Shown here: positions 8,046 through 25,910 of the stretch, piece after piece | Numbering within the stretch: position 1 is the stretch's first letter | Layout of the letters: each line of letters begins with the position of its first letter | Origin: an uncultured Candidatus Melainabacteria bacterium | Lineage (GTDB): Bacteria; Cyanobacteriota; Vampirovibrionia; Gastranaerophilales; Gastranaerophilaceae | Reading direction: 5' to 3' | Assembly (NCBI GenBank): GCA_947090755.1 | Contig: CAMUPF010000017.1 | Coordinates: 1 to 39,308, forward strand | DNA length: 39,308 nt | Position numbers and translations under genes: made by a program | The notes under the pieces: model-generated | What the model was told of the DNA's origin: nothing | Seen by the model: the letters and a program-made list of their open reading frames with translations, nothing else | Database searches by the model: none

Positions 8046-8182
8046 CACTCTACCATACTCCCTTTGAACCTAATTATAATACAAATAAAAATTTTTCTAA
8101 ATATATGATTAAAACTTCTCAACAAAATAGACACGTATGGCATATTTGTATTACAATATAAACAGTTAAAGGAGTGTTTGAT

Positions 8183-9289
8183 TTGTCTGTTCAGACTTTA
8201 GAAAGGCAAAAAAAGAATAGTAGAACAAGTTCTAGTAATATTGGTTTAGAGCTTGTTGTGAATAACCAATATTCTTCATCGGCAAATTATTTTTCGATTA
8301 ATAACCGTCGTTATTTAGGTAATAAATACAAACTAAATGAATTTATAAAAAAGATAATTTCGAAAGAATGTGGTAAATTTGAATCATTTGCAGATTTATT
8401 TGCAGGAACAGGTGCGGTTGCTTCCATGTTTCAAGATAAGCATTTAATAGTAAATGATATTTTATATAGCAATTATATTTGTTATCAAACTTGGTTTGGA
8501 ACTGAACATTATTCTCAATCTAAAATTCAAAACTACATCCAAAAATACAATACTTTGATAATTAAAAAAGACAATTATTGGTCTAAAAACTATGGTAATA
8601 CTTACTTTAGCAAAGAAAATTGCAGAAAAATTGGATTTATAAGAGAAGATATTGAGCAAAATTATTCTGCTAATAATCTAAATAATAGAGAAAAGTGTAT
8701 TTTAATTACATCATTATTGTATGCTATGGATAAGATTGCTAATACATGTGGTCATTATGATGCATATCGTAAAAACGGAGAACTCAACAAGGATCTTGTA
8801 TTAGGTATGCCATTAATACAAAAAACAAATTCTAGAAATGAAATATACAACACTGATATAAACCAACTTGCAAAATTTGTTTCTGCAGATGTTGTATATT
8901 TGGATCCGCCTTACAATTCGAGACAGTATTGTGATGCTTACCATTTACTAGAAAATATTGCTCGTTGGGAAAAGCCTGACGTTTATGGCGTTGCAAGAAA
9001 AATGGATAGAACAGCACTAAAAAGTGATTATTGCACGATATCAGCGACTAAAGCCTTTGAAGATTTAATTAAAAATATTCAAGCTAAATATATCATTCTT
9101 TCTTATAACAACATGGCAAATAAAGGCAATGATAGATCTAATGCTAAGTTATCGGATGACGATATTTTTAGAATATTAAAATCAAAAGGTAAAGTAAAAG
9201 TCTTTTCACAAGACTACAAAGCGTTTTCAACAGGTAAATCAAATATTGAAGAAAATGCAGAAAGACTTTTTGTATGCCAATGCTTTTAG
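8183..9289 (+). CDS. DNA adenine-N6 methyltransferase, D12 class (M1 of type IIS R-M)
   Basis: A 368-residue amino-alpha (D12) methyltransferase. The SAM motif FADLFAGTGAVAS is at about residues 70-82 and the catalytic DPPY at about 241-244 (VVYLDPPYNSRQY). The start is set at TTG 8183 because AAGGAG lies 8 nt upstream; a GTG at 8174 is inside that ribosome site. The next methyltransferase overlaps its end by 16 nt. Asymmetric type IIS sites need methylation of each strand separately, which explains two methyltransferases beside one AlwI-type nuclease. It protects host DNA from the nuclease at 10232-12037. The exact recognition sequence cannot be read from the sequence. Confidence 0.9.
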   Translation: MSVQTLERQKKNSRTSSSNIGLELVVNNQYSSSANYFSINNRRYLGNKYKLNEFIKKIISKECGKFESFADLFAGTGAVASMFQDKHLIVNDILYSNYICYQTWFGTEHYSQSKIQNYIQKYNTLIIKKDNYWSKNYGNTYFSKENCRKIGFIREDIEQNYSANNLNNREKCILITSLLYAMDKIANTCGHYDAYRKNGELNKDLVLGMPLIQKTNSRNEIYNTDINQLAKFVSADVVYLDPPYNSRQYCDAYHLLENIARWEKPDVYGVARKMDRTALKSDYCTISATKAFEDLIKNIQAKYIILSYNNMANKGNDRSNAKLSDDDIFRILKSKGKVKVFSQDYKAFSTGKSNIEENAERLFVCQCF

Positions 9290-10218
9290 AATCTGAAATT
9301 GCATTAGAATTAATTCAATCGCCGTTAAACTATACTGGCGGAAAGTTTAAGTTGCTTCCTCAAATTCTACCATTATTTCCTAAAAATATTGATATCTTTG
9401 TTGATTTGTTCTGTGGTGGAGCAAATGTTGGTGTAAATGTACCAAGTAAAACCACTATTCTCAATGATACAAACGATAATTTAACTCTTCTGTTTAGTAT
9501 GTTTAAAAATCTGGGTAATGATTTTTTATCATTATTAGATGAAATCATTGATAAATATGGACTTTCTCAAAGTTCCAAGTATGGCTATGATTATTATAAT
9601 TGTGATAGCAATACTGGATTGGCTCCTTATAATAAAAACAAGTTTTTAAAATTACGAGAAGATTTTAATAATAGCAAAGATGTTGGATATTATCATTATG
9701 CAATGCTTTATACTTTAATTTTATATTCATTCAATAATCAAATTCGTTTTAATTCTAATGGACAATTTAATTTGCCGGTAGGAAAACGTGATTATAATGA
9801 AAAAATGCAATTAAAATTACAAAAATTTATTAACAGACTAAAAGAAAAAGAATATAAATTCTCCAACTTGGATTTCAGAGAATTTGATATTTCTACGTTA
9901 AATTCCAACAGTTTTGTTTATGTAGATCCCCCATATTTGATAACTTGTGCAACTTATAACGAACAAGGTGGTTGGAGTGAAAAAGATGAAAAAGATTTGT
10001 TGAAGTTACTTGATAACTTGCACTCAAATAATATTAAATTTGCACTATCAAATGTTTTGCGAAGCAAGGGAAAAGAGAATTCAATACTTATAAATTGGGT
10101 TAATAAAAATAGTACTAAATATAGAGTTATTAATTTAAATTATGATTACAATAATTCAAATTATCAAACAAAAAACAAAGATTCTGTTACTGAAGAAGTT
10201 TTAATTATAAATTACTAA
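9274..10218 (+). CDS. DNA adenine methyltransferase, Dam-like D12 class (M2 of type IIS R-M)
   Basis: A 314-residue protein of the Dam/D12 family. SPLNYTGGKFKLLPQI (about residues 15-30) is the Dam-type N-terminal SAM motif (NYTGGK), VDLFCGGANVG at about 42-52 is the FxGxG-type motif, and VYVDPPY ends at residue 221. The DPPY sits after the target-recognition region, as in Dam and M.DpnII. ATG 9274 lies inside the end of the first methyltransferase gene, so the two are translationally coupled. If the system has AlwI specificity (GGATC), a Dam-like enzyme would be a natural fit because the site contains GATC; that is inference. Confidence 0.9.
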   Translation: MPMLLESEIALELIQSPLNYTGGKFKLLPQILPLFPKNIDIFVDLFCGGANVGVNVPSKTTILNDTNDNLTLLFSMFKNLGNDFLSLLDEIIDKYGLSQSSKYGYDYYNCDSNTGLAPYNKNKFLKLREDFNNSKDVGYYHYAMLYTLILYSFNNQIRFNSNGQFNLPVGKRDYNEKMQLKLQKFINRLKEKEYKFSNLDFREFDISTLNSNSFVYVDPPYLITCATYNEQGGWSEKDEKDLLKLLDNLHSNNIKFALSNVLRSKGKENSILINWVNKNSTKYRVINLNYDYNNSNYQTKNKDSVTEEVLIINY

Positions 10219-10231
10219 GGAGAATTTTATT

Positions 10232-12037
10232 TTGGATACATTATGGAGTATGACAACAACCATTCGTGAAGCGGAAAGAATTCCTGCATTTCTTAAAACT
10301 GCAAAAGAAATGGAAAATGAATATTGGGATACTGATGCTCAAATAAAATTTCAAATTTTGTTAATCAAAAATAGAGAATATTTGAATACTGACTCAACTC
10401 AAACATTCAATAAATTAACAACTGAACAAATCAACTTGTTAAAAGACAAAACTATTGAAATGACTTATGATCAAGCAAGAGAAATATTTGAAGCAAAAGA
10501 ATATAGTGATCCTCCAATGAGGGGACGTCAATCAATGTCTCCATTAGAAAAATTAGGTTTGGTAGATAGAAGTTCTGGTAGAATTGTTCTTACCGATATT
10601 GGAAATAAATTACTAAATGAAGAAATAACATTTGATGAATTTATGTTTGAACAATTATTAAAGTTACAATATCCTAATGCTATAGAACGAGAAAGATTAA
10701 ATTGGAATTCTAAACCTTTTATAAATACATTACGATTAATTAAAAAAGTAAATGAGTTATGTCAACAAAATAATATGAAAGCAAAAGGGTTAACAAAAAT
10801 CGAATTTGGAATTTTTGCCCTATCTATTACAAATTATACAGATATAGATTCAATTGCTCAAAAAGTTATCGAATTCAGGCAAGAATATGAAAACCTTGCA
10901 TCCAATATTGATAAAGAAATCTATAGAAAAAGTTTTATTGCACAATATTTATCAACATTTAATAATCCTGAGAACAACACCAAAGAATATACCGATAATA
11001 TTATTCGTTATATGCGTATAACAAAATATATTTATATTCGAGGTAAGTATGGAAATACATGTATAGATCTAGAACCAAGAAGAATGGTAGAGATTAACTC
11101 TATACTTGATAATGATAACGGTGCAGCGAAAGAATTTACACAAGAAGAATGGATAAAGTATTATGGCACATACGGTGCATATGATTTACCATTTGATACT
11201 GTGGAAAAATTAACTGAAATCTTTAATGAGATATTGTCAGAAATAAATTCTTTGGAAAATAAACTTCATATTGACAGGACAATGCTTGCTTGTCCAGATT
11301 CAAAATCAGAAATAAAAGAAGCTATCGTTAAATTAAGAACCAAACGTGTTAGTTTACAAAATTTAGAAATTAAATTTGATTATAATAACGACTTATCAAA
11401 AATTGATGAAGCAATTGAGGCATTATCTAATATTCGAAATCTTGAACTAAAACCTTCAATAGCGCTTGAAAAATGGACAAATGTTGCATTGAATATAATA
11501 AACGATTCTTTGTTAATTAAACCTAATAGTATTGTTGGAGATGATAACGAGCCAACATTTACAGCACCAGCAGGAGTGCCAGATATTGAATGCTACTATG
11601 ATAATTTTAATGCAACTTGTGAAGTAACTATGTTAACAAGTAGAGATCAATGGTATAATGAAGGACAACCCGTAATGCAGCATTTAAGGGATTTTGAATT
11701 ATCTAATAATGATAATAAAGATTGCTATTGTTTATTTGTGGCACCATCCTTACATAGAGGTACCATTAACACTTACTACCAAAGTGTAAAATATGAATAT
11801 GAAGGTGCAAAACAAAAAATTATTCCAATTACAATTAAACAATTAATAGAAATTTTAAAAATCGTAGCTGATTTAAAAAGAGCCAACATAGAGTTTAAGC
11901 ATACATATATAAAACAATTGTATGATAATGTTCTTGAATCAATATTTGATGCAACATCCACATCTTGGGCAGAAGAAAAAATCCCTGCTGCAATCACTCA
12001 ATGGGGAAATACTATGAAAGAGTTATCAGTTGCTTAA
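10232..12037 (+). CDS. Type IIS restriction endonuclease, AlwI family
   Basis: A 601-residue nuclease. The N-terminal part (WSMTTTIREAERIPAFLKTAKEM) and the C-terminal catalytic block place it in the AlwI/BstNBI/Nt.BspD6I family. The block at about residues 447-490 has VPDIECYYDN, then ATCEVTMLTSRDQWYNEGQPV and MQHL, which supplies the Asp, two Glu and His of the family's active site. The preceding half is helical and should hold the DNA-recognition domains. TTG 10232 is taken as start because AAGGAG lies 9 nt upstream. It is 13 nt after the second methyltransferase, in one operon with both. No frameshift or lost catalytic residue is seen, so it is probably active. Confidence 0.88.
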   Translation: MDTLWSMTTTIREAERIPAFLKTAKEMENEYWDTDAQIKFQILLIKNREYLNTDSTQTFNKLTTEQINLLKDKTIEMTYDQAREIFEAKEYSDPPMRGRQSMSPLEKLGLVDRSSGRIVLTDIGNKLLNEEITFDEFMFEQLLKLQYPNAIERERLNWNSKPFINTLRLIKKVNELCQQNNMKAKGLTKIEFGIFALSITNYTDIDSIAQKVIEFRQEYENLASNIDKEIYRKSFIAQYLSTFNNPENNTKEYTDNIIRYMRITKYIYIRGKYGNTCIDLEPRRMVEINSILDNDNGAAKEFTQEEWIKYYGTYGAYDLPFDTVEKLTEIFNEILSEINSLENKLHIDRTMLACPDSKSEIKEAIVKLRTKRVSLQNLEIKFDYNNDLSKIDEAIEALSNIRNLELKPSIALEKWTNVALNIINDSLLIKPNSIVGDDNEPTFTAPAGVPDIECYYDNFNATCEVTMLTSRDQWYNEGQPVMQHLRDFELSNNDNKDCYCLFVAPSLHRGTINTYYQSVKYEYEGAKQKIIPITIKQLIEILKIVADLKRANIEFKHTYIKQLYDNVLESIFDATSTSWAEEKIPAAITQWGNTMKELSVA

Positions 12038-12065
12038 GATATATATAAATATAGGATAATAAAAA

Positions 12066-12722
12066 ATGAAAAATAACGATAATTATATAATTGAAGAATG
12101 CAGACATTGTGGAAACAAAACCAAATTAGATGTTGTCGGAAAATATACCGAATATGGAGACCCAGAATTTGATTATAGATGGGAGAAAAATTGGTTAATG
12201 TTAAAATGTTGTGCTTGTAAAAAAATTTCATTAGGTTCAATTTATTCTGGTGAAGATACTGTTATTTCTTATAATAATGGAGAATATGAATATGATGAAA
12301 TTTATACAATGCATTTCCCAATTGAAACTTATCATGGAACTAATGTACCCGAAAAAGTAAATGATGCATTCTCCTCTGCATTAAAGGTTCATTATGTGGA
12401 TAAAGTTATATGTTTAATTGCCTTAAGACGAACTCTTGAAATTATATGTAAAGATAAGGGAGCAAATGGAAAAACATTAGAAAAGAAAATTTTGGATCTA
12501 ACTCAAAAATGTGTTTTTCCACAAGTTATCAATGAAGCTTCAGATATATTACGCATACTTGGTAATGAAGCTGCACATGGTGATGATGTAAATTATGATG
12601 AACGAATAGTGCAAGAAATGATTAATTTTACACAAATAATCATTGAATATGTCTATGTCATCCCGTTTAGAATCAACCATATCAAATCTAAATTAATTTC
12701 CAAATCTAACTCTAATATTTAA
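12066..12722 (+). CDS. DUF4145-like protein with N-terminal zinc ribbon
   Basis: A 218-residue protein. An N-terminal zinc ribbon has C12-x2-C15 and C48-x2-C51. The rest is helical and carries ALRRTLEIICKDKGANGKTLEKKI and the ILGNEAAHG motif typical of DUF4145, a domain found alone or fused to nucleases in restriction and defence loci. The gene lies 28 nt after the restriction endonuclease with AGGAT before its ATG, so it is the last gene of the R-M operon. Its molecular function is unknown; a structural or regulatory part in the R-M system is inferred only from position. Confidence 0.75.
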   Translation: MKNNDNYIIEECRHCGNKTKLDVVGKYTEYGDPEFDYRWEKNWLMLKCCACKKISLGSIYSGEDTVISYNNGEYEYDEIYTMHFPIETYHGTNVPEKVNDAFSSALKVHYVDKVICLIALRRTLEIICKDKGANGKTLEKKILDLTQKCVFPQVINEASDILRILGNEAAHGDDVNYDERIVQEMINFTQIIIEYVYVIPFRINHIKSKLISKSNSNI

Positions 12723-12782
12723 CAAATCTATATTTTTGTAAACTATTAATGTAAAATAATCTTTTCTTGGTTATTTAAACCC

Positions 12783-12810
12783 TGTTCAAAAAGTGTTCAA
12801 AAGGTGTTCT
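12783..12810 (+). repeat. Tandem 11-bp repeat (TGTTCAAAARG)
   Basis: TGTTCAAAAAG and TGTTCAAAAGG are followed by TGTTCT, all in one direction, in the gap between the convergent R-M operon and the transposition operon. Function unknown. Confidence 0.5.
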
Positions 12811-12859
12811 ATTGAATTGAATTATAATAAGCAATGGTATTTTATTTGTTGAAAAAAAA

Positions 12860-12892
12860 GACTTGCTTAAAAGTTATTCAAGCAAGCCTTTC
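12860..12892. terminator. Terminator between R-M operon and transposition operon
   Basis: CTTGCTT (12862-12868) pairs with AAGCAAG (12880-12886) around an 11-nt loop, with an A-run on the left and CCTTTCT on the right. It mostly serves the minus-strand transposition operon, whose downstream side has the A-run (U-run in RNA). Confidence 0.65.
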
Positions 12893-12899
12893 TGATTTA

Positions 12900-13520
12900 C
12901 TATATAGAATTTGGTAGAGGAATTCTATGAACCTCATAATTTGGAATATTATACTTTTCTTTTACAACATCATCATAGTTTAAATACAAGTCATACAGTT
13001 TATATTCAAATAATGGAGTGTTATTGTATAAATTTGGAATTCGCTTAATATCGGAATAAGGAATATTTGAAACATAATTATTTCCCATTTCATTATACAT
13101 ATATTCAAGAATGAGATATTCTCTAACAATTTCAGCAAATTTAGGTGCTATTTCCATGTATTCTTTGGCAACTTTACTTTTAATGCCTTTTACATATTCT
13201 TGAAAAGCTTTTTGTTTTTTCATTCTTACTCTATAAATATCGTAATTTAAATTTTTCTTTTTCTCAGTAACGCCTTTTACCAAATCTTCTTTGAGTTCAA
13301 TATCTTCTTCAATTTTCTTTAGTCTTTTATTTATTTTTGCAACACTTTTACCTTCTGCTAATAGAGTTGGTCTTTGAGTCTTTAACTTTTGAATTTCTTC
13401 TTGAAGCTTTACAATATCGTTTTGAGCCTCAAATTTTCTGTTATCCATTTCATCAATTTCATCAAAAAACTTATTGCATTCTTTGAATATGATATCCATT
13501 TCTTCTCTTGTGATAGTCAT
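12900..13520 (-). CDS. Coiled-coil protein of unknown function (transposition operon)
   Basis: A 206-residue protein. Residues about 20-125 are a Lys/Glu-rich coiled coil (KLQEEIQKLKTQRP, IELKEDLVKGVTEKKKNLNYD); the C-terminal third is more compact and Tyr/Asn-rich (PNLYNNTPLFEYKLYDLYLNYDD). I recognise no family. AAGGAG lies before ATG 13520. It is the distal gene of the transposase operon, 79 nt after the small HTH gene. A structural or target-related role is possible; no motif shows it. Confidence 0.65.
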   Translation of the reverse strand: MTITREEMDIIFKECNKFFDEIDEMDNRKFEAQNDIVKLQEEIQKLKTQRPTLLAEGKSVAKINKRLKKIEEDIELKEDLVKGVTEKKKNLNYDIYRVRMKKQKAFQEYVKGIKSKVAKEYMEIAPKFAEIVREYLILEYMYNEMGNNYVSNIPYSDIKRIPNLYNNTPLFEYKLYDLYLNYDDVVKEKYNIPNYEVHRIPLPNSI

Positions 13521-13599
13521 AATAAACTCCTTTCTTGATTTGTTCGCATTAAACGAATATCGGCTCTGCCTTGCACTCTCCGCTCACAAATCGCTTTCT

Positions 13600-13794
13600 T
13601 TACTTTAAATTTCTGTAACTAAACCCAAGTTCATAATATATAAATATTTCAAACTCTTTGCTGTAACGTTCTCCGTTAATCAGTCTTGTAATATAAGATT
13701 CAGACTTATTAAGCATTTTTGCCATTTTCTTTTGATTCATATGCTTTATACGCATTTTTGCTCGAATATTATCGGCTCGTCTTTCTAGAAACAT
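13600..13794 (-). CDS. Small HTH protein
   Basis: A 64-residue Xre-like helix-turn-helix: MNQKKMAKMLNKSESYITRLINGERY at about residues 18-43 is the HTH. Its ATG at 13794 overlaps the end of the 243-residue gene by 10 nt, so the two are coupled. In Mu-like elements a small HTH protein (Ner type) near the transposase controls early transcription; by position this is the closest analogue, though in Mu the order differs. AAGGAAG precedes the start. Confidence 0.75.
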   Translation of the reverse strand: MFLERRADNIRAKMRIKHMNQKKMAKMLNKSESYITRLINGERYSKEFEIFIYYELGFSYRNLK

Positions 13795-14516
13795 AATTTC
13801 TTCCTTATATTTTTTACTTCTTCCGGTGAAAAATCTTTGCGTAGTCTTCGCCTGAATGTCATTACGCTAGGAAATTTTTCTAAAGGAATTTGAAAAATTT
13901 TTGCGGCATTTTCTCTGCTTTTCATGATAGATACACCGTAATTTGACAGATAAAATTTCTTAAATATTGCATAATATTCTTCCATATCCGGATAATAGGA
14001 TTTTCTTGGAGTTCCAAATTTTGAGATTAATGCAATATCTCCATATCTGACATAAGCATTTCGTTTTCGTATTAAATTTGCATAACTTGTTCGATTAGAA
14101 GGATTTAATTGGTTATATTCATCAATAAATTCCATTAATTTCTTACCATGCAATCCGTTTGTTATTTTTAACAAATGCAAATATTTATCTCTTTTCTTTC
14201 GATTGTATTCAGGAATTTCTTCCAACTCTTTTGAAGTTAAATTTTTAATATTTGGAGTATTAATCTCAACGAATTTAACAAAATCCTTATCCTGAATGAA
14301 TCTTGTTGTTGTATTTCTAACAACAGGCTCTGTTGGCGGAGGAATTTGTTTAAATTCGCAGAAAACAAAGCCTAGATTAGTCTTTTTCAAAACTCCTTCA
14401 TCTATCAATTCTTGTAATACACTTTGTAATTTTTCTTTTGGAGTTTCTGCAAGCAGAAAGATATCTTCAAAAGTAAATGCTTTTAGTTTTCTTGATAAAT
14501 AGCGTATTTTCTTCAT
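13785..14516 (-). CDS. MuA-like DNA-binding protein without a catalytic domain
   Basis: A 243-residue protein. Residues 1-55 look like a winged helix (TFEDIFLLAETPKEKLQSVLQELIDEGVLKKTNLGFVF). Residues about 105-235 resemble the bipartite DNA-binding region that precedes the DDE domain of Mu/Tn7 transposases: a helical block (YNRKKRDKYLHLLKITNG), an HTH block (SYANLIRKRNAYVRYGDIALI), then SRENAAKIFQIP and FRRRLRKDF, matching in order the AGKDFLRVYNEG ... SFRRYAKLY part of the neighbouring transposase. No DDE motif follows. Its ATG overlaps the ATPase stop by 4 nt (ATGA) behind AGGAGG. An end-binding or target-selection factor is inference; it could instead fill the role TniQ has in Tn7-like elements. 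Confidence 0.6.
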   Translation of the reverse strand: MKKIRYLSRKLKAFTFEDIFLLAETPKEKLQSVLQELIDEGVLKKTNLGFVFCEFKQIPPPTEPVVRNTTTRFIQDKDFVKFVEINTPNIKNLTSKELEEIPEYNRKKRDKYLHLLKITNGLHGKKLMEFIDEYNQLNPSNRTSYANLIRKRNAYVRYGDIALISKFGTPRKSYYPDMEEYYAIFKKFYLSNYGVSIMKSRENAAKIFQIPLEKFPSVMTFRRRLRKDFSPEEVKNIRKKLCF

Positions 14517-15208
14517 TTAGCCTCCTTTTTTAAAAATTTTGTAACACATTTTAAATCTATTTCTTTTAAATCATTCGCTTCGGCAAGTATTTCAGATTTA
14601 TTTACTAATTTAACAATTTGCCTGAAACCAAACCCTGTTTGATGTATGTATTTTATTGCGTCATCAGTAAACCTCACTTCTGATAACCCGTTTACCAAAA
14701 TTCCCGTTTCGTCAGTTGAGAATGGTTCAAAATGTAAAACTTCAGAAAATCTATCAGTTAAATGGGCATATTTATCTAAATTTCTTCTTGCAAAACGCAT
14801 TCCAATTAAAATAATAGGGGTATGAGTTCTGTCATGAATATCTCTCAAAATTTCAATACCACACTTGTCTTTTGTTAAATAATCTACTTCATCAACGATT
14901 AAGACTTTAGGGTCTTTAATCAGATATTGAACAACCTGATTAAATAAATCAGAACTTCTAAAAAGCGGCACTTCTCCCATTTCTTTTACGATTTCTTCTA
15001 AAAGTGAACGAGGAGTTGTAACTTGAGTTGCACTTACAAAAATTGCATCATTATTAGCTGACCACCAAGTAGCAACTCTTGTTTTACCGAGTCCCGGTTC
15101 CCCATATACAAGTGCCATTCCCGGAACTCCATTTGCTCGATTGATTAAATTATTCATAAGAGTAATAAAATTTTTTACATTGGTTGTTTTAATAAATTCG
15201 ATTTTCAT
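14513..15208 (-). CDS. Transposition AAA+ ATPase (MuB/TniB/TnsC type)
   Basis: A 231-residue AAA+ ATPase. Walker A is GEPGLGKT (residues 36-43), Walker B VLIVDEVD (102-109), followed by a sensor-like PIILIGMRFARRNL. In this family the ATPase binds target DNA, recruits the transposase and gives target immunity. The start ATG 15208 is preceded by GGGAGG and lies inside the transposase gene (20-nt overlap), so the two are coupled. Length fits the short TniB/MuB-type proteins rather than the longer TnsC. Confidence 0.9.
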   Translation of the reverse strand: MKIEFIKTTNVKNFITLMNNLINRANGVPGMALVYGEPGLGKTRVATWWSANNDAIFVSATQVTTPRSLLEEIVKEMGEVPLFRSSDLFNQVVQYLIKDPKVLIVDEVDYLTKDKCGIEILRDIHDRTHTPIILIGMRFARRNLDKYAHLTDRFSEVLHFEPFSTDETGILVNGLSEVRFTDDAIKYIHQTGFGFRQIVKLVNKSEILAEANDLKEIDLKCVTKFLKKEAK

Positions 15209-17192
15209 TTACAGCCTCCCCGTATATTTGTTTATATTCCTCAGACAATTCATACCTTTTAAACCAAACAAAATCCGCATCATTTTCAAATCCGTTTTTA
15301 AGATGCCATTCATATCTTTCATAGCGGGAGCTAAAAGCTGGTCTGCCATCATTTTCAAAAACTTCTTCAACTTCTCTGTTTTGGTTTGAGCGTGATGTTA
15401 TTTGAGGAACATTTTGCCATTCTAAAGGTTTAATATGCTCAGTTTTAAAATAATTTTTAATTTCTTTTATTGTTTGTTTTTCAAGAGTTTTTTGCTGTTT
15501 AATTTTGAATTTTAACTCTTGCTGATCCTTTATATCACCAAGATATTCAGCCATAGGATGAATTGGAGCAATTCTTTCTGCATCACAAATGAATTTATTT
15601 TTAAGAGAAAAGATTTTAATTTTAGTCAAATCTGATAAACTGTACTTGATAATTACTCTGCCCTGTAAACCATACAAAGCCTCGTTATAATAATCGGCTT
15701 TTAGGAATCTGATACCGTTGCGATTTATTGTTTTAATTTGTGTATGCATCATTAAATCGTCAAGTTCGTTAATATTAACACCTTTTCCTTTACCTTCTTT
15801 AAATATTTCACCAATAGTTTTTCCTTTAAAATTAGGACATTCCAAGCTTCTGTGAAACTCCATATAGCAATCAAGCATTTGTGTTAATTGTTCAACTGTC
15901 GGGATAAAATCATTATGATATTCTTTATGAAATTTTTCGTTACGTTTCATATAAGCAGGTTTATCCGTAATATTTGAGCCGACAAATGATGGTAATAATC
16001 TTTCAAAGCTGTCTTGTAGTTCTCTGAAAAATCGCTCGATAACTTTTGCTCTTGCATTATACGGTTGAGCAAAAACAGCAGTAATGCCAAGTTTATTAAA
16101 TAAGCCGTTAATGCCGCTTTCATAAAAATCACCTGTAAAAAATTTTGCCCTGAAAGCTTTTCCGTTATCCTGATAGCATATTTTAGGAATTTTCCCAAGA
16201 TTTATAATTGCATTTCTCAATGCAGAAGTTATTGCTTGAGTATTTTCTTCAAGCATAATCTCGTAACCGACAAGAGCTGTTGATTTCCAATCCAGATATC
16301 CTATAAGTCTTGCTCTGCATGGCTTACCCGTAAACGGATTTAAACATTGAACAGCCAGTCTGTGACCATCCGCAACCAAAACATCCCCGACTTCCAGTTG
16401 AGTAATATCACGTGTAATATATGGCTGAACTTTATCTCTTAATGCTTTTTGTCCCTCTCTTGCAAATACCCATTCATCATAGTGCTTTTGTTGATACAGT
16501 TTTGCATATCTGCGAAAACTTCTTTCGTTTGATGGAGACTCATATCCTTTCTTGTTTAAAATATACTTCGTTAATTTAGCAGCTTTTCCGATATTAATTT
16601 CGTTTGGGGATAACAATAGAGATTTAAAGCATATTTCTTCTTCCTTTGTTAAATTGACACTGCATTCTTTTTCTCCGTAATCATAATTGGGAATTAAAAG
16701 AGTATAGTCATCTTTTGTCTTAATTTGTTTATACCATCTGTAAATTGTTCCTATTGAAACTTGCCCGACAATATTAAAAATAATCGGGTACATTTGCCCT
16801 TCATTATATACACGAAGAAAATCTTTGCCTGCTTCGGTTTTATTTTTTGATTGCTTCTTGTAATCAACCCATAAATTTACTAAATCATATCTTGCCAATG
16901 CTATTTGTTTCGCATGCGCTGGAATTATTGTATTTTTTCTTAAATTTGGTTCCCTGTTTTTCTCGATTTCAATTTTATTTTTCTCAAAATCGATTAAATT
17001 TTGAGTGTTATAATTCAATGATTGAACAAGAATTTCATACTTAGAGCCGGTTGAACCGTCAACTAATCGGGTTACATATTTATTTTTGTTAACAGCTTTG
17101 CGAACAGCTCTTGGGGTTATACCCTGAATGTTTGCTAAGTCTTTTACTGTAATCCATTCTTTATTCAAGAACTTTCTCCTTAATTTTTTCAT
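15189..17192 (-). CDS. Mu/Tn7-type DDE transposase (MuA/TnsB-like)
   Basis: A 667-residue transposase that cuts and joins the transposon ends. Residues about 12-60 form an N-terminal winged-helix/MerR-like domain (WITVKDLANIQGITPRAVRKAVNK); residues about 100-240 are the end-binding domains; the RNase H-like core has D275 (VLVADGH), D342 (YQDNGKAF) and E386 (KVIERFF); the mu-C-like beta barrel follows (SLSDLTKIKIFSLKNKFICDA). D-D spacing is 67, as in MuA. The C-terminal tail after about 540 is helical and basic and probably contacts the ATPase. ATG 17192 follows AAAGGTGG. It is the first gene of a five-gene operon and is intact. Confidence 0.93.
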   Translation of the reverse strand: MKKLRRKFLNKEWITVKDLANIQGITPRAVRKAVNKNKYVTRLVDGSTGSKYEILVQSLNYNTQNLIDFEKNKIEIEKNREPNLRKNTIIPAHAKQIALARYDLVNLWVDYKKQSKNKTEAGKDFLRVYNEGQMYPIIFNIVGQVSIGTIYRWYKQIKTKDDYTLLIPNYDYGEKECSVNLTKEEEICFKSLLLSPNEINIGKAAKLTKYILNKKGYESPSNERSFRRYAKLYQQKHYDEWVFAREGQKALRDKVQPYITRDITQLEVGDVLVADGHRLAVQCLNPFTGKPCRARLIGYLDWKSTALVGYEIMLEENTQAITSALRNAIINLGKIPKICYQDNGKAFRAKFFTGDFYESGINGLFNKLGITAVFAQPYNARAKVIERFFRELQDSFERLLPSFVGSNITDKPAYMKRNEKFHKEYHNDFIPTVEQLTQMLDCYMEFHRSLECPNFKGKTIGEIFKEGKGKGVNINELDDLMMHTQIKTINRNGIRFLKADYYNEALYGLQGRVIIKYSLSDLTKIKIFSLKNKFICDAERIAPIHPMAEYLGDIKDQQELKFKIKQQKTLEKQTIKEIKNYFKTEHIKPLEWQNVPQITSRSNQNREVEEVFENDGRPAFSSRYERYEWHLKNGFENDADFVWFKRYELSEEYKQIYGEAVNENRIY

Positions 17193-19842: not shown

Positions 19843-20079
19843 CCGAAATAATCAAACTATTTGTCAAACGCCCAGTACAGGCTAAAACACAGACTATACT
19901 TTGCAGAAAACCCAAGTTGCCGAAATAATACAACTAGCTGTCAGACCATCAAAAGAGGCATTTGACCGTTTTGTTTGACACTTAGTTTGATTATTTCCTA
20001 CCCCTCAAACCCCGATATATAGCTAACTTTCCCAAATAATACAACTACCCGCCATAATCCAAATGCCTCAAAAAATACA
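19843..20079 (-). repeat. Transposon right end with transposase-binding-site-like repeats
   Basis: The copies of the roughly 24-bp repeat are at 19843-19866, 19919-19943 and 20031-20054 (each CC-AAATAAT-N2-AACTA and ending TGTCA or CGCCA on +), plus one in the opposite direction at 19976-19999. The three aligned copies face the left-end copies, as expected. The end itself is CAAAAAATACA (20069-20079). Between the repeats nothing else is recognised. Confidence 0.75.
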
Positions 20080-20162
20080 CGCGCTCGAACCCTCAAATGG
20101 GTTCTCACCCTCATCATGCAAAATAAAAAAGCAGATAACAAAAGTCATCTGCTTTTTTATGG
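20080..20162. repeat. tRNA-end repeat, His copy, right half, with target duplication
   Basis: It starts with the second CGCGC (20080-20084), then TCGAAC, GTTCTCA (20101-20107), CAAAATAAAA (20119-20128), a terminator hairpin and the tRNA-His 3' end. The same order (TCGAAC, GTTCTCA, CAAAATAAAA, hairpin, tRNA 3' end) is seen at 27697-27769 beside tRNA-Lys. Confidence 0.7.
20125..20158. terminator. Terminator of tRNA-His
   Basis: AAAAAAGCAGAT / ATCTGCTTTTTT around a 10-nt loop, directly downstream of the tRNA on the minus strand. It is symmetric and can work both ways. Confidence 0.8.
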
Positions 20163-20236
20163 GGCGGATGATGGGATTCGAACCCATGTATATCGGAACC
20201 ACAATCCGAGGCCTTAACCACTTGGCGACACCCGCC
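20160..20236 (-). tRNA. tRNA-His (GTG)
   Basis: A full cloverleaf: acceptor GCGGGTG / CATCCGC, D-arm with GCCAAGTGG, anticodon loop TTGTGGT with anticodon GTG, and T-arm GGGTTCGAATCCC. A G at -1 faces C73, the identity pair of tRNA-His, and CCA is encoded. The 3' end sequence is repeated at 4826-4840. Confidence 0.95.
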
Positions 20237-20327
20237 ATTTATCTGTATTTTTATACTAGCACGAAAATATTTTTTGTCCAGCACAATTTTATATTAAAAA
20301 AGCTCCGGTTTGGAGCTTTTCTTATTA

Positions 20328-21077
20328 TTAACTGATTCGTTGGAACATATAACCGATTCCGCGCGCCGTTAAGATTAATTCCGGATTCGCAGGGTCGGAT
20401 TCCAGTTTTGAACGCAATCTTGAAATGTGTACGTCTACCACGCGGGTATCAATTCGATGATCGGCAGGGTATGCCCATACGTGTTGCAAAATTTCGTTTC
20501 TTGAGAACGCTTGACCCGAATTGTTTACCAACAATTCTAACAGGCTGAATTCCATTCCTGTAAGACGGATTCGGTCGTTCTTTCTGTATACCTGACGTCT
20601 TGCGGTGTCGATTTTAATATTACCTGCTGTAATAACATTTTTTGTCACTTTGCCTGATGGTGTTACCATTTCGCGGTTATTTGTACGGCGAAGTACGGCT
20701 TTTACGCGCGCTTCAAGTTCTTTTGGGCTGAATGGTTTGATAACGTAGTCGTCAGCACCCAGTTCAAGGCCGGTAATTCTTTCGGATACATCGCCCAATG
20801 CTGTTAAGATAATAATAGGTACATCAGCGGTGCGTCGGATTTCTCGTGTCACTCCGTAACCGTCCATTTTTGGCATCATTACGTCTAATACTACAAGATC
20901 AGGGTTGTATTTGTTGAATGCATTTACTGCGGCTTCGCCGTCTTCTGCTGTGTAGACATCGTAACCCGCCATTTTCAAACGTGTTTCTAATATACGTCTG
21001 ATACTTGCTTCGTCATCTGCCAACAAAATTCTAGGACGATCTTCATTTTCTATTGTCATCTCAGCATTTTCTGTCAT
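20328..21077 (-). CDS. rpaB: RpaB-type OmpR-family response regulator
   Basis: A 249-residue two-component regulator. Residues 16-130 are a receiver domain with acidic pocket D21/D22, phospho-acceptor D65 (VVLDVMMPKMDG), switch T in IIILTAL and K in YVIKPFSP. Residues about 150-245 are the winged-helix DNA-binding domain (RLTGMEFSLLELLVNNSGQAFSRNEIL, VVDVHISRLRSKLE, ARGIGYMFQRI). The wording of both domains is that of cyanobacterial RpaB/Ycf27, which controls stress and light responses through HLR1 elements; in a non-photosynthetic relative its regulon is open. AAAGGAAAAAG precedes the start. No histidine kinase is adjacent; in Cyanobacteria the partner NblS is also unlinked. Confidence 0.88.
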   Translation of the reverse strand: MTENAEMTIENEDRPRILLADDEASIRRILETRLKMAGYDVYTAEDGEAAVNAFNKYNPDLVVLDVMMPKMDGYGVTREIRRTADVPIIILTALGDVSERITGLELGADDYVIKPFSPKELEARVKAVLRRTNNREMVTPSGKVTKNVITAGNIKIDTARRQVYRKNDRIRLTGMEFSLLELLVNNSGQAFSRNEILQHVWAYPADHRIDTRVVDVHISRLRSKLESDPANPELILTARGIGYMFQRIS

Positions 21078-21323
21078 CTATCTTTTTCCTTTTCTTTTGT
21101 AAAAGTGTTATTTCAGCACTTAATTATTAACAAATGTTTATTTTTTTATATTTTTTTGAATATTTGTAACTATATATTAACATAACATTTTAAAAATTAC
21201 AAGCACTTTTGTTAAAAACTTGACTTAGATGTTGGGGAGGTGAAATTACCTTGCAGGTGGTAGCTGATGAGGGGAATGTTTTTTTTCTCGGAAATTTTAA
21301 AATCCTATTGAGAGGAGATTTTT
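21078..21323. other. Intergenic region between rpaB and the exported protein gene
   Basis: 246 bases without a gene. It is very AT-rich near rpaB. On the minus strand GTTACAAA (near 21164-21171) resembles one half of an HLR1 site, which would fit RpaB autoregulation but lacks a clear second half. The G-rich stretch 21230-21280 (GTTGGGGAGGTGAAATTACC) has a small hairpin AGGTGAAATTACCT of unknown meaning. Confidence 0.3.
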
Positions 21324-21674
21324 ATGCGAAGAATTTATGTTGTTCTGGTTTTATTACTTGCGATAGCAATCCCGATGGCGGTAAAATATAGTATTAACCA
21401 TGCGAATGTGCACAAAGCATGTAATGACGGCCCTTGTTTGATAAATAATTTTTCTGATTTTTCAAACGACCCGCTTCAGGAAAGGCATTTGCCCAATAAT
21501 TTAGAGAAGATGTCTAAACCTGATGCGTTTCAGCCGAATCTTGATAACCATCCGAAGGATGAAATGATTAATATGGATGGATTTCAAGAGGATTCAGCGA
21601 ACCGTGTCGGTCAAAAATGTGAATTTGGTTTATGTTTGCCGGGGCAGCAGCAGCCGGGGAATAGGCAGGATTAA
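21324..21674 (+). CDS. Small exported or membrane-anchored protein of unknown function
   Basis: A 116-residue protein. Residues 4-20 are hydrophobic (IYVVLVLLLAIAIPMAV) and form a signal or anchor. The rest is hydrophilic, Asn/Asp/Pro-rich and probably disordered. Two short Cys pairs flank it, CNDGPC and CEFGLC, each C-x4-C and both ending in a similar way (GPCLINNF, GLCLPGQQ), which suggests an internal repeat or a metal/disulfide site. GAGAGGAG lies 6 nt before ATG. No family recognised. Confidence 0.65.
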   Translation: MRRIYVVLVLLLAIAIPMAVKYSINHANVHKACNDGPCLINNFSDFSNDPLQERHLPNNLEKMSKPDAFQPNLDNHPKDEMINMDGFQEDSANRVGQKCEFGLCLPGQQQPGNRQD

Positions 21675-21682
21675 AGCTGATG

Positions 21683-21704
21683 TGCGGCGGGTGCTTCCGC
21701 CGCA
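21683..21704 (+). terminator. Hairpin after the exported protein gene
   Basis: TGCGGCGG / CCGCCGCA around GTGCTT. The stem is strong but only TTATGC follows, so termination may be partial. Confidence 0.55.
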
Positions 21705-21710
21705 TTATGC

Positions 21711-21739
21711 TTGACATGTTGTAAAACATGGTACATAAT
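21711..21739 (+). promoter_or_regulatory. Promoter of the pilin-like gene
   Basis: TTGACA (21711-21716), 17 nt, CATAAT (21734-21739). The 15 bases ATGGTACATAATAAA (21728-21742) recur exactly at 39237-39251, also 17 nt after a TTGAC(T). The in-frame ATG at 21728 is inside this promoter and cannot be the start. Confidence 0.75.
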
Positions 21740-21764
21740 AAATTAAAAGAAAGGAAGGATAAAA

Positions 21765-22756
21765 ATGAAAAACGATATTGTAAGTATTTTGACAGGGGGG
21801 GGGGGCGTGCCTTAACAGGCACATCTAAGCGCTTAGCGTTTACCATGGCTGAAATTTTATTATCCTTGACAATCATCGGCGTGGTCGCAGCGATAACGCT
21901 TCCGTCGCTGACCGGTAATATTAACGAGCGCACATGGAACACACAGCGCAAAGCGCTTTATGCACGAATGAGTCAGGCAATTGCATTAATGCCTGCAATT
22001 AATGGCTATGGAACTTTAACCGAGGACGAAAACCACAGCGTGACAGCGGACACTGCGGCAGAGACCTTTGTGACGGAAGGACTTTCAAAAGTTCTAAAAA
22101 TTAATAATATTTGTGATTCTGACCACCTTGCTGATTGTGGTATTCCGTCTACTATTACACCATTAGACGGTTCATCCGCAGTTAAGCTTTCAGATATTTC
22201 AACTTTTCTAGATTTGTGTTATGCGATGGACTTTTCAGACCCGCACTGGTCTTATTCTCAAATAAATACAAAAACTGCGGCATTTGAAACTGTAAATGGA
22301 GAATCAATTCTGACCTATTATAATCCATATTGTGCGGGGATTCAAACGGAAGTTTATGCACAACCGCTAATATGCGCTAATTTTGTGTATGATTTGAACG
22401 GAAACAAAGGCCCGAACACTGTTGGGAAAGATATTGGAGTGATGACAGCGCTTTACCCGAGTGATACAGTATTAGTTGCCCCGCAGCCGTTGCAGCGTAA
22501 CGCGTCATCCTCTTCAAAATGGGAAGACGCTTCAAAGTTATGTACTACTCAGGACGCTGAAAGCAGGTTGCCGAATATTGATGAGTTATCTGCAATGTTT
22601 GCCAATAATAAATTGTTTAAAATTCAAACGGGAGTTGCATACTGGTCAGGAACAGTGGATTCTTCTGTAAAAGCGTGGCATCACGGTTTGGGCTCGGGTG
22701 AACGAAGATCTGTTTTAAAAACCACAAGTGACGTTGTAAGGTGTGTTAAACGTTAA
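21765..22756 (+). CDS. Type IV pilin-like protein, frame split by an 11-G tract (possible phase variation)
   Basis: The long frame encodes a prepilin leader (SKRLAFTMAEILLSLTIIGVVAAITLPSL) followed by about 300 residues of a pseudopilin-like protein with several Cys and a C-terminal region (SRLPNIDELSAMF, AYWSGTVDSS, VVRCVKR) resembling surface Fib-succ/DUF1566-type domains. The only good start is ATG 21765, behind AAGGAAGG and downstream of the promoter. From there translation runs MKNDIVSILT into eleven G (21795-21805) and stops at TAA 21813. With 12 or 9 G the start would be in frame with the leader. As sequenced the gene is therefore OFF, or read by slippage. It lies tail-to-tail with prepilin peptidase, which would process it. 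Confidence 0.75.
21795..21805 (+). repeat. Eleven-G homopolymer tract at the pilin start
   Basis: GGGGGGGGGGG lies between codon 10 of the ribosome-site start and the prepilin leader. Such tracts mutate in length and switch genes on and off; sequencing error is the rival explanation. Confidence 0.8.
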
Positions 22757-23720
22757 AGAACATTACGACGAATCCTGCAAGAACGAGGGCCGGTCCGAAA
22801 GGTACTGCAAGGCCCTCGGTTTTTGAGCCTAAAACCTTTCCTAATAACTGGCGGCAAACGTAAATTGCTGTGCCGATTAATGCGATAGTGTAGCCTAAAA
22901 GGTAAATAACGTTTTCTTCAAAAAGTCCGAATTTATTTGATAGACCATAGCCGACTGCTAAAATCGCGACGGCTAAAATTCCGCCAAAAAGTTTATAATT
23001 TTTTTCTTGTAAAAGTCTGTATTCAAAAAGTACGCCGGTGATGAGCGCTTGAATTAAAAATCCCAGAACGATTATTATCCAGATTTTTTCCCGGCCGTAG
23101 CAAGCGCCAAGTGCCATTGCAATGTAAATATCACCGTCACCCATCGCCATTTTCCCGCCGGCCATTATGTATGAAACGCCAAAGTATAAAAGCATGATTA
23201 TTCCGCCAAAAATCAAGCCCAGAACAGAACTGCTAAGCGGGTTGTCCAGCCATGTGATTTCGGTGCCGTTAAGCGCCATTATCCCTGTTGCGCCGGCATG
23301 GTAAATTAAACCGATTAGTGCGAAGGCAAAACAGTGCATTAGGAAAACAACATGTTCTTTTATATCTGTAATGGCAATTACGAGTGACATAAAAATTACA
23401 GCCCACAAGAATATTAAATGTGCACTCATCCCGAATTTTAAGAACGCAAGAAGGAATAAAATTGCTGTAATCGCTTCCACCAGCGGGTATTGCCAGCTTA
23501 TATGCGTTTTGCAAAAGTAGCATTTACCGCCCAATAGAAGGTAGGAAAGTAACGGGATATTATGCCACCAGTAAAGTGGTTTCTGGCAGGTCGGGCATTT
23601 TGAAGCCGGATATGAAATGGATTCACCGCTAAAGGCCCTTAGTACCACGACGTTTAGAAAGCTTCCGAAACAAAGCCCTGTAAGTAGCACGAATATTGAT
23701 GCCGCAATCATAATTTCCAT
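22746..23720 (-). CDS. Prepilin peptidase (type IV leader peptidase/methylase)
   Basis: A 324-residue, polytopic aspartyl protease that cuts and N-methylates prepilins in the inner membrane. Residues 1-80 hold the methylase-type domain with GSFLNVV and the zinc pairs C42-x2-C45 and C67-x2-C70; the first catalytic Asp is in VIAITDIKEHVV, the second in the GxGD motif AMGDGDIYIAMALG. About eight membrane helices. Its ATG overlaps the stop of the sigma-factor gene (TAATG), so the two are coupled, which would link sigma-factor level to pilus assembly. It is convergent with, and overlaps by 11 bp, the pilin-like gene. Confidence 0.92.
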   Translation of the reverse strand: MEIMIAASIFVLLTGLCFGSFLNVVVLRAFSGESISYPASKCPTCQKPLYWWHNIPLLSYLLLGGKCYFCKTHISWQYPLVEAITAILFLLAFLKFGMSAHLIFLWAVIFMSLVIAITDIKEHVVFLMHCFAFALIGLIYHAGATGIMALNGTEITWLDNPLSSSVLGLIFGGIIMLLYFGVSYIMAGGKMAMGDGDIYIAMALGACYGREKIWIIIVLGFLIQALITGVLFEYRLLQEKNYKLFGGILAVAILAVGYGLSNKFGLFEENVIYLLGYTIALIGTAIYVCRQLLGKVLGSKTEGLAVPFGPALVLAGFVVMFFNV

Positions 23721-24487
23721 TATTTCCCCTCTGTTCTTACTATTTCATATAGTTTGTTAAGTGCTTTTTTAATTTTTCTTGAAACTTGCATTTGTGATAA
23801 GCCGAGTTTTTCGGAAATTTGTTTCTGATTCAGGTCTTCAAAGTAATTTAATACAAGAATTTCTCTAAGTTCAGCGGGAAGTTTTTCTAACGCGGAGTTT
23901 AACATTAACCGGTTTTCCGAATTGTTTAAAAAATCTTTGTAATCCCCGTCAGGGATTTTGTCCATAAGGCTTAAATCTTCGTCGTCGCCTGAGTTCTGGT
24001 CAAGTGAGAGAATTTCCTGTCCTATTTCAAGCGATAGAACATCCTCAACTTTTTGGGCGGGAAGTCCGAGTCTTTCTGAAATTAATTCTATAGATGTTCC
24101 GTCCTTGCCTTCTTCGTTAAGTTCTCTGGAGGCCACGCTGATTTTGTATGAAAGCTCCTGAATTTCGCGCGGCGGTTTGATAAAGCTTGCTTTGTCGCGC
24201 AGGTAGTGCTTGATTTCACCCTTAATAAAATAGGTCGCGTAGGTTTTGAATTTGGTGTTTTTACTAAGGTCATAAAAATCAATAGCCTTCATCAAGCCTA
24301 TAGAACCCACCTGCATTAAATCCTCCTGCTGCCGGTAGTTTTTGTAAGCAGGGCCGGATACGATTTTTTTTACATACCCGAGCGAAAGTTCTACTATTTT
24401 AAGGTGTAGAACCCTTTTTTTCTTCTCATCGGTGCAATCTTTATATTGTAAGAGTAAATCCTTTAATTCTTCTTCCAAATCTAACAC
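23720..24487 (-). CDS. Sigma-70 family factor, group 3 (SigB/SigF-like)
   Basis: A 255-residue sigma factor. Region 2 has QEDLMQVGSIGLMKAIDFYDLSKNTKFKTYATYFIKGEIKHYLRDK, region 3 PREIQELSYKISVASRELNEEG ... SIELISERLGLP, and region 4.2 LNQKQISEKLGLSQMQVSRKIKKALNKLY with its HTH. The order and lengths fit the SigB/SigF/SigG group (general stress or development) or cyanobacterial SigF, which controls pili; the coupling to prepilin peptidase favours a pilus or surface regulon, as inference. The start is GTG 24487 behind GAGG. No anti-sigma gene is adjacent. Confidence 0.88.
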   Translation of the reverse strand: MLDLEEELKDLLLQYKDCTDEKKKRVLHLKIVELSLGYVKKIVSGPAYKNYRQQEDLMQVGSIGLMKAIDFYDLSKNTKFKTYATYFIKGEIKHYLRDKASFIKPPREIQELSYKISVASRELNEEGKDGTSIELISERLGLPAQKVEDVLSLEIGQEILSLDQNSGDDEDLSLMDKIPDGDYKDFLNNSENRLMLNSALEKLPAELREILVLNYFEDLNQKQISEKLGLSQMQVSRKIKKALNKLYEIVRTEGK

Positions 24488-24598
24488 ATTAACCTCGCGG
24501 ATATACTCTATCCTATCATAAAACCTTTATAATAACAAATTGTAAACTTAACGTTAAAAATCAACCTGTTTGTTGTATTATAGAATAAAGGTTAGTCT

Positions 24599-25882
24599 AT
24601 GGAAGTAAGAAAGCTATTTACTCTAATTATTTGTTTCGCGGTGCTGGCAATTTGTTCGCCTGCGAAGGCCGATGTCATAGGTCTTACTCTTGATGAAGCA
24701 ATTGATATGGCGCTTACTTATAACCTTGATTTGCAAGCCAAAAGGAAAGAACTTGGCGCGGCCAAAGAAGATATAAAAATAGCAAACAGACTTCAAAATC
24801 CGCGTGTGGTCGGTAACTTTTTAATCGGTAAGGTTAGACTTGGAAACTCCAGTCAGGTCGGGATTGACCAGCCTGTAGAATTTATGAAGCGCGGCCCGCG
24901 TAAAAAAGTCGCTAAAGCTAAATATTCTATTGCACAAAATAAGGTTCGAGAATACGAACACGACTTGAAAATTGAGGTTATGAGAGCCTATTTTGATGTG
25001 CTTTACCTTAAGTCTGTCGTTTCTATTATGAATGACCGTAAACTTCTCTTTGAAGAAATGGCAGATGTGGCAAAAACTAAGTCCCCGAATGCTGATAATT
25101 ATAAAATAGAACTTCTTCAATCAGATATCCGCTACAAGCGTATGATGATTGAATTAAATCAGGCAAAAGCAAATTTATTGAGTGCACAATTCCATTTGAA
25201 TAAAGTTATTAATATGGAAAAAACCGAGAATATGTACGATGCAACCGAAACTTCGCTTTTTGCGGAAGATTTATCAATCCTTTCAATTTCGCTTTTGCCA
25301 TACGATATTATTGAAAAAATAGCGATGAAATACAGTTATTCTTTGCGTATTGCGGATTATGACATTAAGCGTGCCGAAGCAGAAGTTTCTGTTGCAAAAA
25401 GTAAAAGAATCCCTGATTTCAATGTCGGTGGCGGTTATGCATGGCAGGCACACTATCGCGGTGGCGGAAACGATTGGCCCGGTGCGTTTGTAGGCGCAAG
25501 TATGGACATGCCGATTTTATATTTTTACGGCCCTGATATTAGAAAGGCTAATTTGATTCTTGAAAAATCCAAGATGGATAAAACCTCATTCGAAAATAAA
25601 CTTAAAATTGCTCTCAAACAGGATTATAATAATTTTAAATACGCAAAAGAAAATATGGAATATTACCGTGAAATTATGCAGGAATCGCGTGATATTCTGG
25701 AAATGTCGAAAGAAAGATTCAGTAAAGGCAAGACTACGTTCTTAAACCTTCTGATTGTTGAAAACACGCACCAGCAAACGCTTCAGGAATACCTTAAAGC
25801 TATGGGCTTGTATTATTCTGCTTACTTGAATCTTATGCATAACACCGGCCACGATGTTTTATTACAGGAAGAAATATTCTAA
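24599..25882 (+). CDS. TolC-like outer-membrane efflux protein
   Basis: A 427-residue exported protein: signal peptide to about residue 24 (PAKA|D), then the two-fold TolC repeat of long helices (LTLDEAIDMALTYNLDLQAKRKELGAAKEDIKIANR in the first, IEKIAMKYSYSLRIADYDIKRAEAEVSVAKSKRIPDFNVGGGY in the second, written here with the usual LxEAI...ALxxN start). It would form the outer-membrane channel of a tripartite pump or type I secretion system, which implies a diderm envelope. No pump or adaptor gene is next to it. TAGAAT at 24581-24586 gives a leader of only a few nt. Confidence 0.85.
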   Translation: MEVRKLFTLIICFAVLAICSPAKADVIGLTLDEAIDMALTYNLDLQAKRKELGAAKEDIKIANRLQNPRVVGNFLIGKVRLGNSSQVGIDQPVEFMKRGPRKKVAKAKYSIAQNKVREYEHDLKIEVMRAYFDVLYLKSVVSIMNDRKLLFEEMADVAKTKSPNADNYKIELLQSDIRYKRMMIELNQAKANLLSAQFHLNKVINMEKTENMYDATETSLFAEDLSILSISLLPYDIIEKIAMKYSYSLRIADYDIKRAEAEVSVAKSKRIPDFNVGGGYAWQAHYRGGGNDWPGAFVGASMDMPILYFYGPDIRKANLILEKSKMDKTSFENKLKIALKQDYNNFKYAKENMEYYREIMQESRDILEMSKERFSKGKTTFLNLLIVENTHQQTLQEYLKAMGLYYSAYLNLMHNTGHDVLLQEEIF

Positions 25883-25910
25883 CTGTATTTAGCGGAAGAA
25901 TAAATGCTAA

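Follow-up and report, generated by a model that had tools for sequence, protein, structure and literature searches.

We have examined a 39,308-nt stretch of DNA (the window), which is contig 17 of the 53 contigs of a 1.78 Mb genome and carries a pilin-like gene with a run of 11 G residues near its 5' end (Table 1). The initial annotation gave this gene a TTGACA-N17-CATAAT promoter, a ribosome site, and an ATG at 21765 from which the frame meets the G run and stops at 21813, and all of these elements are present as described, to the base. The frame from the ATG reads MKNDIVSILTGGGGVP, with 30 nt preceding the tract, and the sole upstream ATG in the long frame (21728) does indeed lie between the -35 and -10 boxes and is therefore 5' of any likely transcript start, with the frame open to 22756. 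There are 316 codons 3' of the tract, close to the 310 originally estimated, and 305 of these belong to the mature pilin. The prepilin leader that had been proposed is also recognizable, with A preceding the cleavage site and FTMAEILLSLTIIGVVAAITLP following it, such that the gene has a leader, a G/A residue before cleavage, F at +1, E at +5, and a hydrophobic N-terminal helix; the match to Pfam N_methyl (PF07963) scores 16.1 bits, below the curated 21.2. No other tract of nine or more G is present in the window, and because shuffles of the window give an expectation of 0.04 such tracts, the G11 run is not a product of chance. At this length the gene is one base short of being in frame (the -1 state), which is the rarer of the two out-of-frame states.

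A gene for the prepilin peptidase PilD is convergent with the pilin gene, and its product would cut the pilin leader; PilB/PilT-like ATPases are also encoded in the genome (PF00437 matches). Comparison of window positions 20001–25900 by blastn with the loci of relatives L109 to L112 gave no match, and we reject synteny of the locus with these named relatives. We also note, from reading of translations only, methyltransferase-like genes followed by Mu/Tn7-type transposase-like genes and an ATPase partner at 8174–17192.

Table 1. Features of the pilin locus in the window.
Feature	Position	Strand	Basis or remark
Promoter TTGACA-N17-CATAAT	21711–21739	+	Sequence; sibling upstream regions
-35 box TTGACA; 17 nt; -10 box CATAAT	21711–21716; 21734–21739	+	Sequence
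Ribosome binding site AGGAAGGA	21752–21759	+	Sequence; comparable sites before sibling ATGs
Short frame at present tract length: ATG, 16 aa, TAA (21813–21815)	21765–21815	+	Sequence; state OFF
G11 tract, proposed slippage switch	21795–21805	+	Sequence
Leader spacer RALTGTSKRLA, tract to predicted prepilin cleavage site	21806–21838	+	Absent from mature protein
Frame of the mature pilin (305 aa), from F1 to the stop	21839–22756	+	First 40 residues almost identical across siblings
Hypervariable C-terminal domain, Lcl-like / C-type-lectin-like	22502–22750	+	Pfam below cut-off; Foldseek; sibling identity
Prepilin peptidase PilD, A24 family	22746–23720	-	PF06750 113.3 bits, PF01478 27.2 bits, both above cut-off

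A dispersed family of tract-led pilin genes

The host genome has about 113 genes of this kind, the window gene among them, and the part in which they vary is the lectin-like C-terminal domain, neither of which was anticipated in the initial annotation. Genes were counted with a degenerate DNA pattern for FTMAEILLSLT, which occurs in 113 dispersed copies in the host and in 90–106 copies in each of five congeners, and is absent (0 copies) from 32 other relatives and from the congener G005. Tracts of nine or more G number 115 genome-wide (487 nine-G windows minus 372 ten-G windows), in agreement with a direct count of four tracts of exactly nine G and 111 longer ones. The DNA examined outside the window comprises the stretches around tracts and pilin genes, in which 100 distinct tracts were listed by script, and 78 of the approximately 100 tracts inspected have a prepilin on their 3' side; this figure is a lower bound, with a tract demonstrated for only part of the 113 motif genes, and several tracts lacking a scored prepilin are interrupted by a contig end and adjoin the same 5' segment. 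A search for G tracts before other FTxAE leaders had been proposed as a check on the window gene, and its outcome is thus massively positive.

Nearly all 78 loci share a common layout of promoter, ribosome site, ATG, about 30 nt, G9–14, leader, FTMAEILLSLT, and a body of about 310 residues. The ATG lies 27–33 nt from the tract in class A loci and 46–49 nt in class B, and at most loci the leader spans 0–78 residues and is followed by FTMAEILLSLTIIGVVAAITLPSLTGNINERTWNTQRKALY and the body. A site matching TTGACW-N17-CATAAT at 10 or more of 12 positions is present in 58 of 73 sibling upstream regions, compared with one of 73 when shuffled, mostly about 52 nt 5' of the ATG, and most copies in the family have a promoter, a ribosome site and an ATG of their own. 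The leader spacers at several loci (including L010, L031, and L060) contain repeat-like peptides such as HPELVSESIQCDRKSVTPDRSRNKFGMT and look like dispersed repeats inserted in frame. Host contigs often end just past a tract (e.g. L018, L022, L044, L072, L076, and L079) and most of the loci sampled from congener G004 have N gaps at the tract, such that assemblies break at the pilin switches. One pilin tract (host contig C31, 10093–10103) is within about 150 nt of the end of mutS (C31, 10243–12756).

The sibling proteins have a mean identity of 95% over the N-terminal 60 alignment columns and 30% over the last 86. AlphaFold2 with 20 siblings gave a mean pLDDT of 80; most of the C-terminal part scores higher than 90, and the N-terminal helix is of low confidence (helices at residues 3–17 and 25–50, with pLDDT below 50 at residues 10–28). 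For this predicted model, Foldseek ranks the Legionella Lcl C-terminal domain first (8q4e; E = 2.1e-6; TM-score normalized by target length, 0.62) and C-type lectins next, and the C-terminal domain is predicted from the model to fold like the Lcl lectin domain. Pfam Lcl_C (PF07603) scores 26.1, 24.6, 19.7, and 27.5 bits across the sequences tested (26.1 for the window gene), all under the cut-off of 34.9.

Orthologues in the sister species G001 and G003 illustrate how the parts of these genes relate. The bodies can be aligned starting at about codon -1 or -2 of the mature protein, and they retain their downstream flank; in most pairs homology returns further upstream, and in two it includes the tract. 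Divergence is greatest between the tract and the cleavage site, which is fitting since the prepilin peptidase would remove this stretch. Promoter and leader type do not correlate with C-terminal similarity (Mantel r about 0), and this suggests past reassortment of the 5' region and the C-terminal domain, where saturation could hide an older linkage. Across the whole sibling set, silent sites are close to saturation over the entire gene. On this ground we reject a recent duplication burst as the origin of the family, and the same saturation argues against the variable domain having come from a diversity-generating retroelement.

The common N-terminal coding segment and the lack of correlation between 5' regions and C-terminal domains would also be expected if most copies were recombination donors for a few expressed loci, as in gonococcal pilin variation, with the tracts being incidental. 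However, most copies have the signals needed for their own expression (promoter, ribosome site, and start), the near-saturated silent sites of the shared segment give no sign of frequent conversion, and orthologue bodies keep their downstream flank between sister species, and we therefore think a system of silent cassettes very improbable.

Reading states and the proposed switch

With the start codon and the mature N-terminus fixed, each locus can be given one of three states: 0 when the tract is in frame, +1 when it has one base too many, and -1 when it has one too few. Among 76 scored loci in the host genome, 18 are in frame and 58 are out of frame (53 at +1 and five at -1); a separate reading test gives 16 readable genes and 58 that are not, with two further loci in frame but encountering a stop. 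The out-of-frame readings yield peptides of 13–53 residues. The out-of-frame majority in the assembly could be taken to mean that the family is decaying and that these members are pseudogenes, but the bodies contradict this: all 57 complete out-of-frame genes have intact bodies (at least 290 residues), as do all 15 complete readable ones, and among the out-of-frame genes the first 40 mature residues are 99.5% identical, whereas four-fold degenerate sites agree at only 40%. Intactness and constraint in the face of such silent-site divergence mean that these genes must be expressed at times; judged by these sequence patterns they are under selection although off in this assembly, and we find the pseudogene reading scarcely credible. 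The proposal that this is a phase-variable pilin gene switched by tract length is thus supported by siblings in both reading states, with the out-of-frame bodies intact and constrained.

With the layout, the copy number, the two sibling states, the constrained out-of-frame bodies, the common promoter, the predicted lectin-like fold, and the PilD and ATPase genes in view, we consider it highly likely that the genome encodes a combinatorial, phase-variable repertoire of lectin-tipped pilins switched by G tracts, and that the window locus is one contingency gene among them. Two features by which such genes are recognized are present, in that the tract is longer than chance would give, its position is one where length changes shift the frame, and homologous loci with intact bodies are found on and off. 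Replication slippage in living cells would alter the tract length, with in-frame lengths admitting the ribosome to the prepilin frame (on) and other lengths ending translation early, as a short peptide (off). Whatever lies between the tract and the mature N-terminus would be cut off by the prepilin peptidase, and would be free to vary for that reason. The near-invariant N-terminal helix would allow any member to assemble into the same pilus, and, with the lectin-like C-terminus being hypervariable, each member would have a ligand of its own or present another antigenic face. If the genes switch independently, cells would show different pilin subsets, and we infer that expression differs between cells of one population. 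Four observations sit less easily with this interpretation: the imbalance of +1 and -1 states, the presence of MutS1 and MutL, the sub-cut-off Pfam matches, and an orthologous tract that is G12 in both sister species. In its favour are a second orthologous tract, which is G12 in one sister species and G15 in the other, the 90–106 copies in five congeners compared with the tract-free members of G005, and the separate prepilin expansion in G062 (below).

The imbalance extends beyond the host. Pooled over six species (with 62 scored loci providing the congener states, and the congener totals above being pattern counts), there are 90 loci at +1, 37 in frame, and 11 at -1, an eightfold excess of +1 over -1. 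This was not expected, since a simple off state predicts equal numbers of the two. The excess is present in all three classes of required length, with loci that need 12, 11, or 10/13 G residing mostly at 13, 12, and 11/14 respectively, and with classes of different requirement sitting at different lengths we reject a single equilibrium tract length as its cause. When lengths are shuffled among loci, a mean of 59 +1 states is obtained and 90 is never reached in 20,000 trials, although loci with a common 5' ancestor are not fully independent and the shuffling p values are optimistic.

There are two possible accounts of the excess, insertion-biased slippage from on alleles that were recently selected, or some expression of +1 alleles through a -1 slip. 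In the second, the tract would be a programmed frameshift or transcript-slippage signal that tunes dose, with the +1 state giving low expression when the ribosome or the RNA polymerase slips by -1 and the in-frame state giving high expression. The dominance of +1 in three length classes and six species is as this would predict, but insertion-biased slippage yields the same excess, loci that have a 5' ancestor in common do not count as independent observations, the bias is weak in a separate prepilin expansion (G062, below), and the window gene is itself at -1. We regard programmed slippage as possible and on the whole unlikely, and are similarly tentative about the idea that one G over is the preferred state because a -1 slip provides basal expression of the whole repertoire and a change to in frame turns a gene up, such that the tract is more than a plain on/off switch. 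If this were so, the display of a hundred genes at two dose levels each would be a contingency system of a new kind.

Assembly of long G runs is difficult, and the contig ends and the N gaps of G004 at tracts raise the question of whether every tract is really in frame, with constitutive expression of the genes. We think this quite improbable, as both states and several lengths are found inside a single assembly, and again across six separate ones, and errors of sequencing or assembly would not yield a frame preference that tracks the required length of each class; moreover, even in-frame tracts of 12–13 G near the start of some 78 siblings would call for a reason.

Relatives and other tracts

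The Ffh protein of the window is 93–96% identical to those in three records, including Candidatus Gastranaerophilus phascolarctosicola Zag_221, which most likely places the genome in the genus Gastranaerophilus (Vampirovibrionia), a lineage of gut-dwelling, non-photosynthetic Cyanobacteria. A sequence record with the label Fusobacterium sp. (L109, JAMPIJ010000028.1) has an Ffh 96% identical to that of the window, and the label looks wrong. In the congener G005 the family is reduced to six genes, and there is no run of ten G; in the fetched loci, copies with the variant motifs FTMAEILIS or FTMAEILISM, which were assigned to G005 by motif, have ordinary short leaders (e.g. MKKFA) and no tract. 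Tracts and family expansion thus appear to go together.

A tract-leader-FTLAEV pattern is present in 13 of 97 family genomes. In one of these, G062 (another genus, 1.5 Mb), at least 44 FTLAEV prepilin genes lie directly behind G9–11 tracts, with bodies of about 245 residues that are unlike the window family and are intact in 25 of 25 complete cases; this is a separate expansion of different prepilins, and its states (13 at +1, 11 in frame, five at -1) are only weakly biased. MutL was not found in G062 or in its congener G008. In some bacteria a large set of tracts goes with a loss of mismatch repair; such a loss is rejected as the cause for Gastranaerophilus, in which, surprisingly, MutS1 and MutL are both present.

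Tracts are also associated with non-pilin genes. On host contig C8, a G14 tract at 16310 (L046) is within a gene that towards its 3' end is similar to acyltransferase family 3 (PF01757, with a score under the cut-off), and G13 and G15 tracts 1.1 kb apart (22353–23474; L047 and L048) lie in non-pilin genes, the first tract being followed by a hexapeptide-transferase-like fragment; surface glycan genes may be phase-variable as well. A G14 tract on contig C1 (102608; L013) precedes a 520-codon frame matching PRTase-CE (PF24390), and a rabbit-gut relative (L184) has four G9–10 tracts within 21 kb, before non-pilin frames.

Comparison with known systems

Homopolymer phase variation itself has long been known, and what appears to be new is a single family of lectin-tipped pilins this large, mostly switched by G tracts, in a gut lineage. 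In the gonococcal pilE/pilS system the pilin N-terminus is invariant and the C-terminal part variable, with a large repertoire in each genome and with donor copies lacking promoters and starts. The family described here is alike in its invariant N-terminus, variable C-terminus, and large single-genome repertoire, and differs in comprising complete genes with their own switches rather than promoterless donor cassettes. An uncultured gut lineage that is not known as a pathogen here has about 113 genes of one pilin family with differing lectin-like tips, most of those inspected being preceded by a G-tract switch, which suggests that commensals may vary the fibres on their surface to evade antibodies or phages, or to sample other host glycans. 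The hundred or so parallel loci in one genome are material for measuring slippage bias and reading-frame selection, and we caution that automatic gene calling may truncate or miss genes with an out-of-frame tract.

A search of the open literature found no open paper on phase variation or a pilin repertoire in these organisms, which does not prove its absence elsewhere; single-cell work on a termite-gut member of the lineage described pilA and other pilus genes (PMC5877343). Legionella Lcl, which binds host glycosaminoglycans, shares the predicted C-terminal fold (8q4e; PMC11162425), but it is a single-gene, collagen-like trimeric adhesin and not a pilin, and the sequence match here is below the Pfam cut-off, with glycan binding being only putative. 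In the vlhA haemagglutinins of Mycoplasma gallisepticum there are likewise numerous paralogous genes for surface adhesins, every one with a repeat switch by which the displayed protein is varied, but the switch is a GAA repeat in the promoter acting on transcription of a lipoprotein (PMC6258824), whereas here it is G9–14 inside a prepilin reading frame; the two families have no sequence relation. There is also a likeness to the phase-variable genes of Neisseria and Campylobacter, in which gain or loss of a base in an in-frame homopolymer toggles translation (PMC5084427, PMC8437040, PMC11868660, the last of which also mentions gonococcal pilin antigenic variation), with 115 phase-variable genes predicted in the meningococcus (PMC5084427). 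Those repertoires are mixtures of unrelated surface genes, whereas most of the tracts described here serve one paralogous pilin family.
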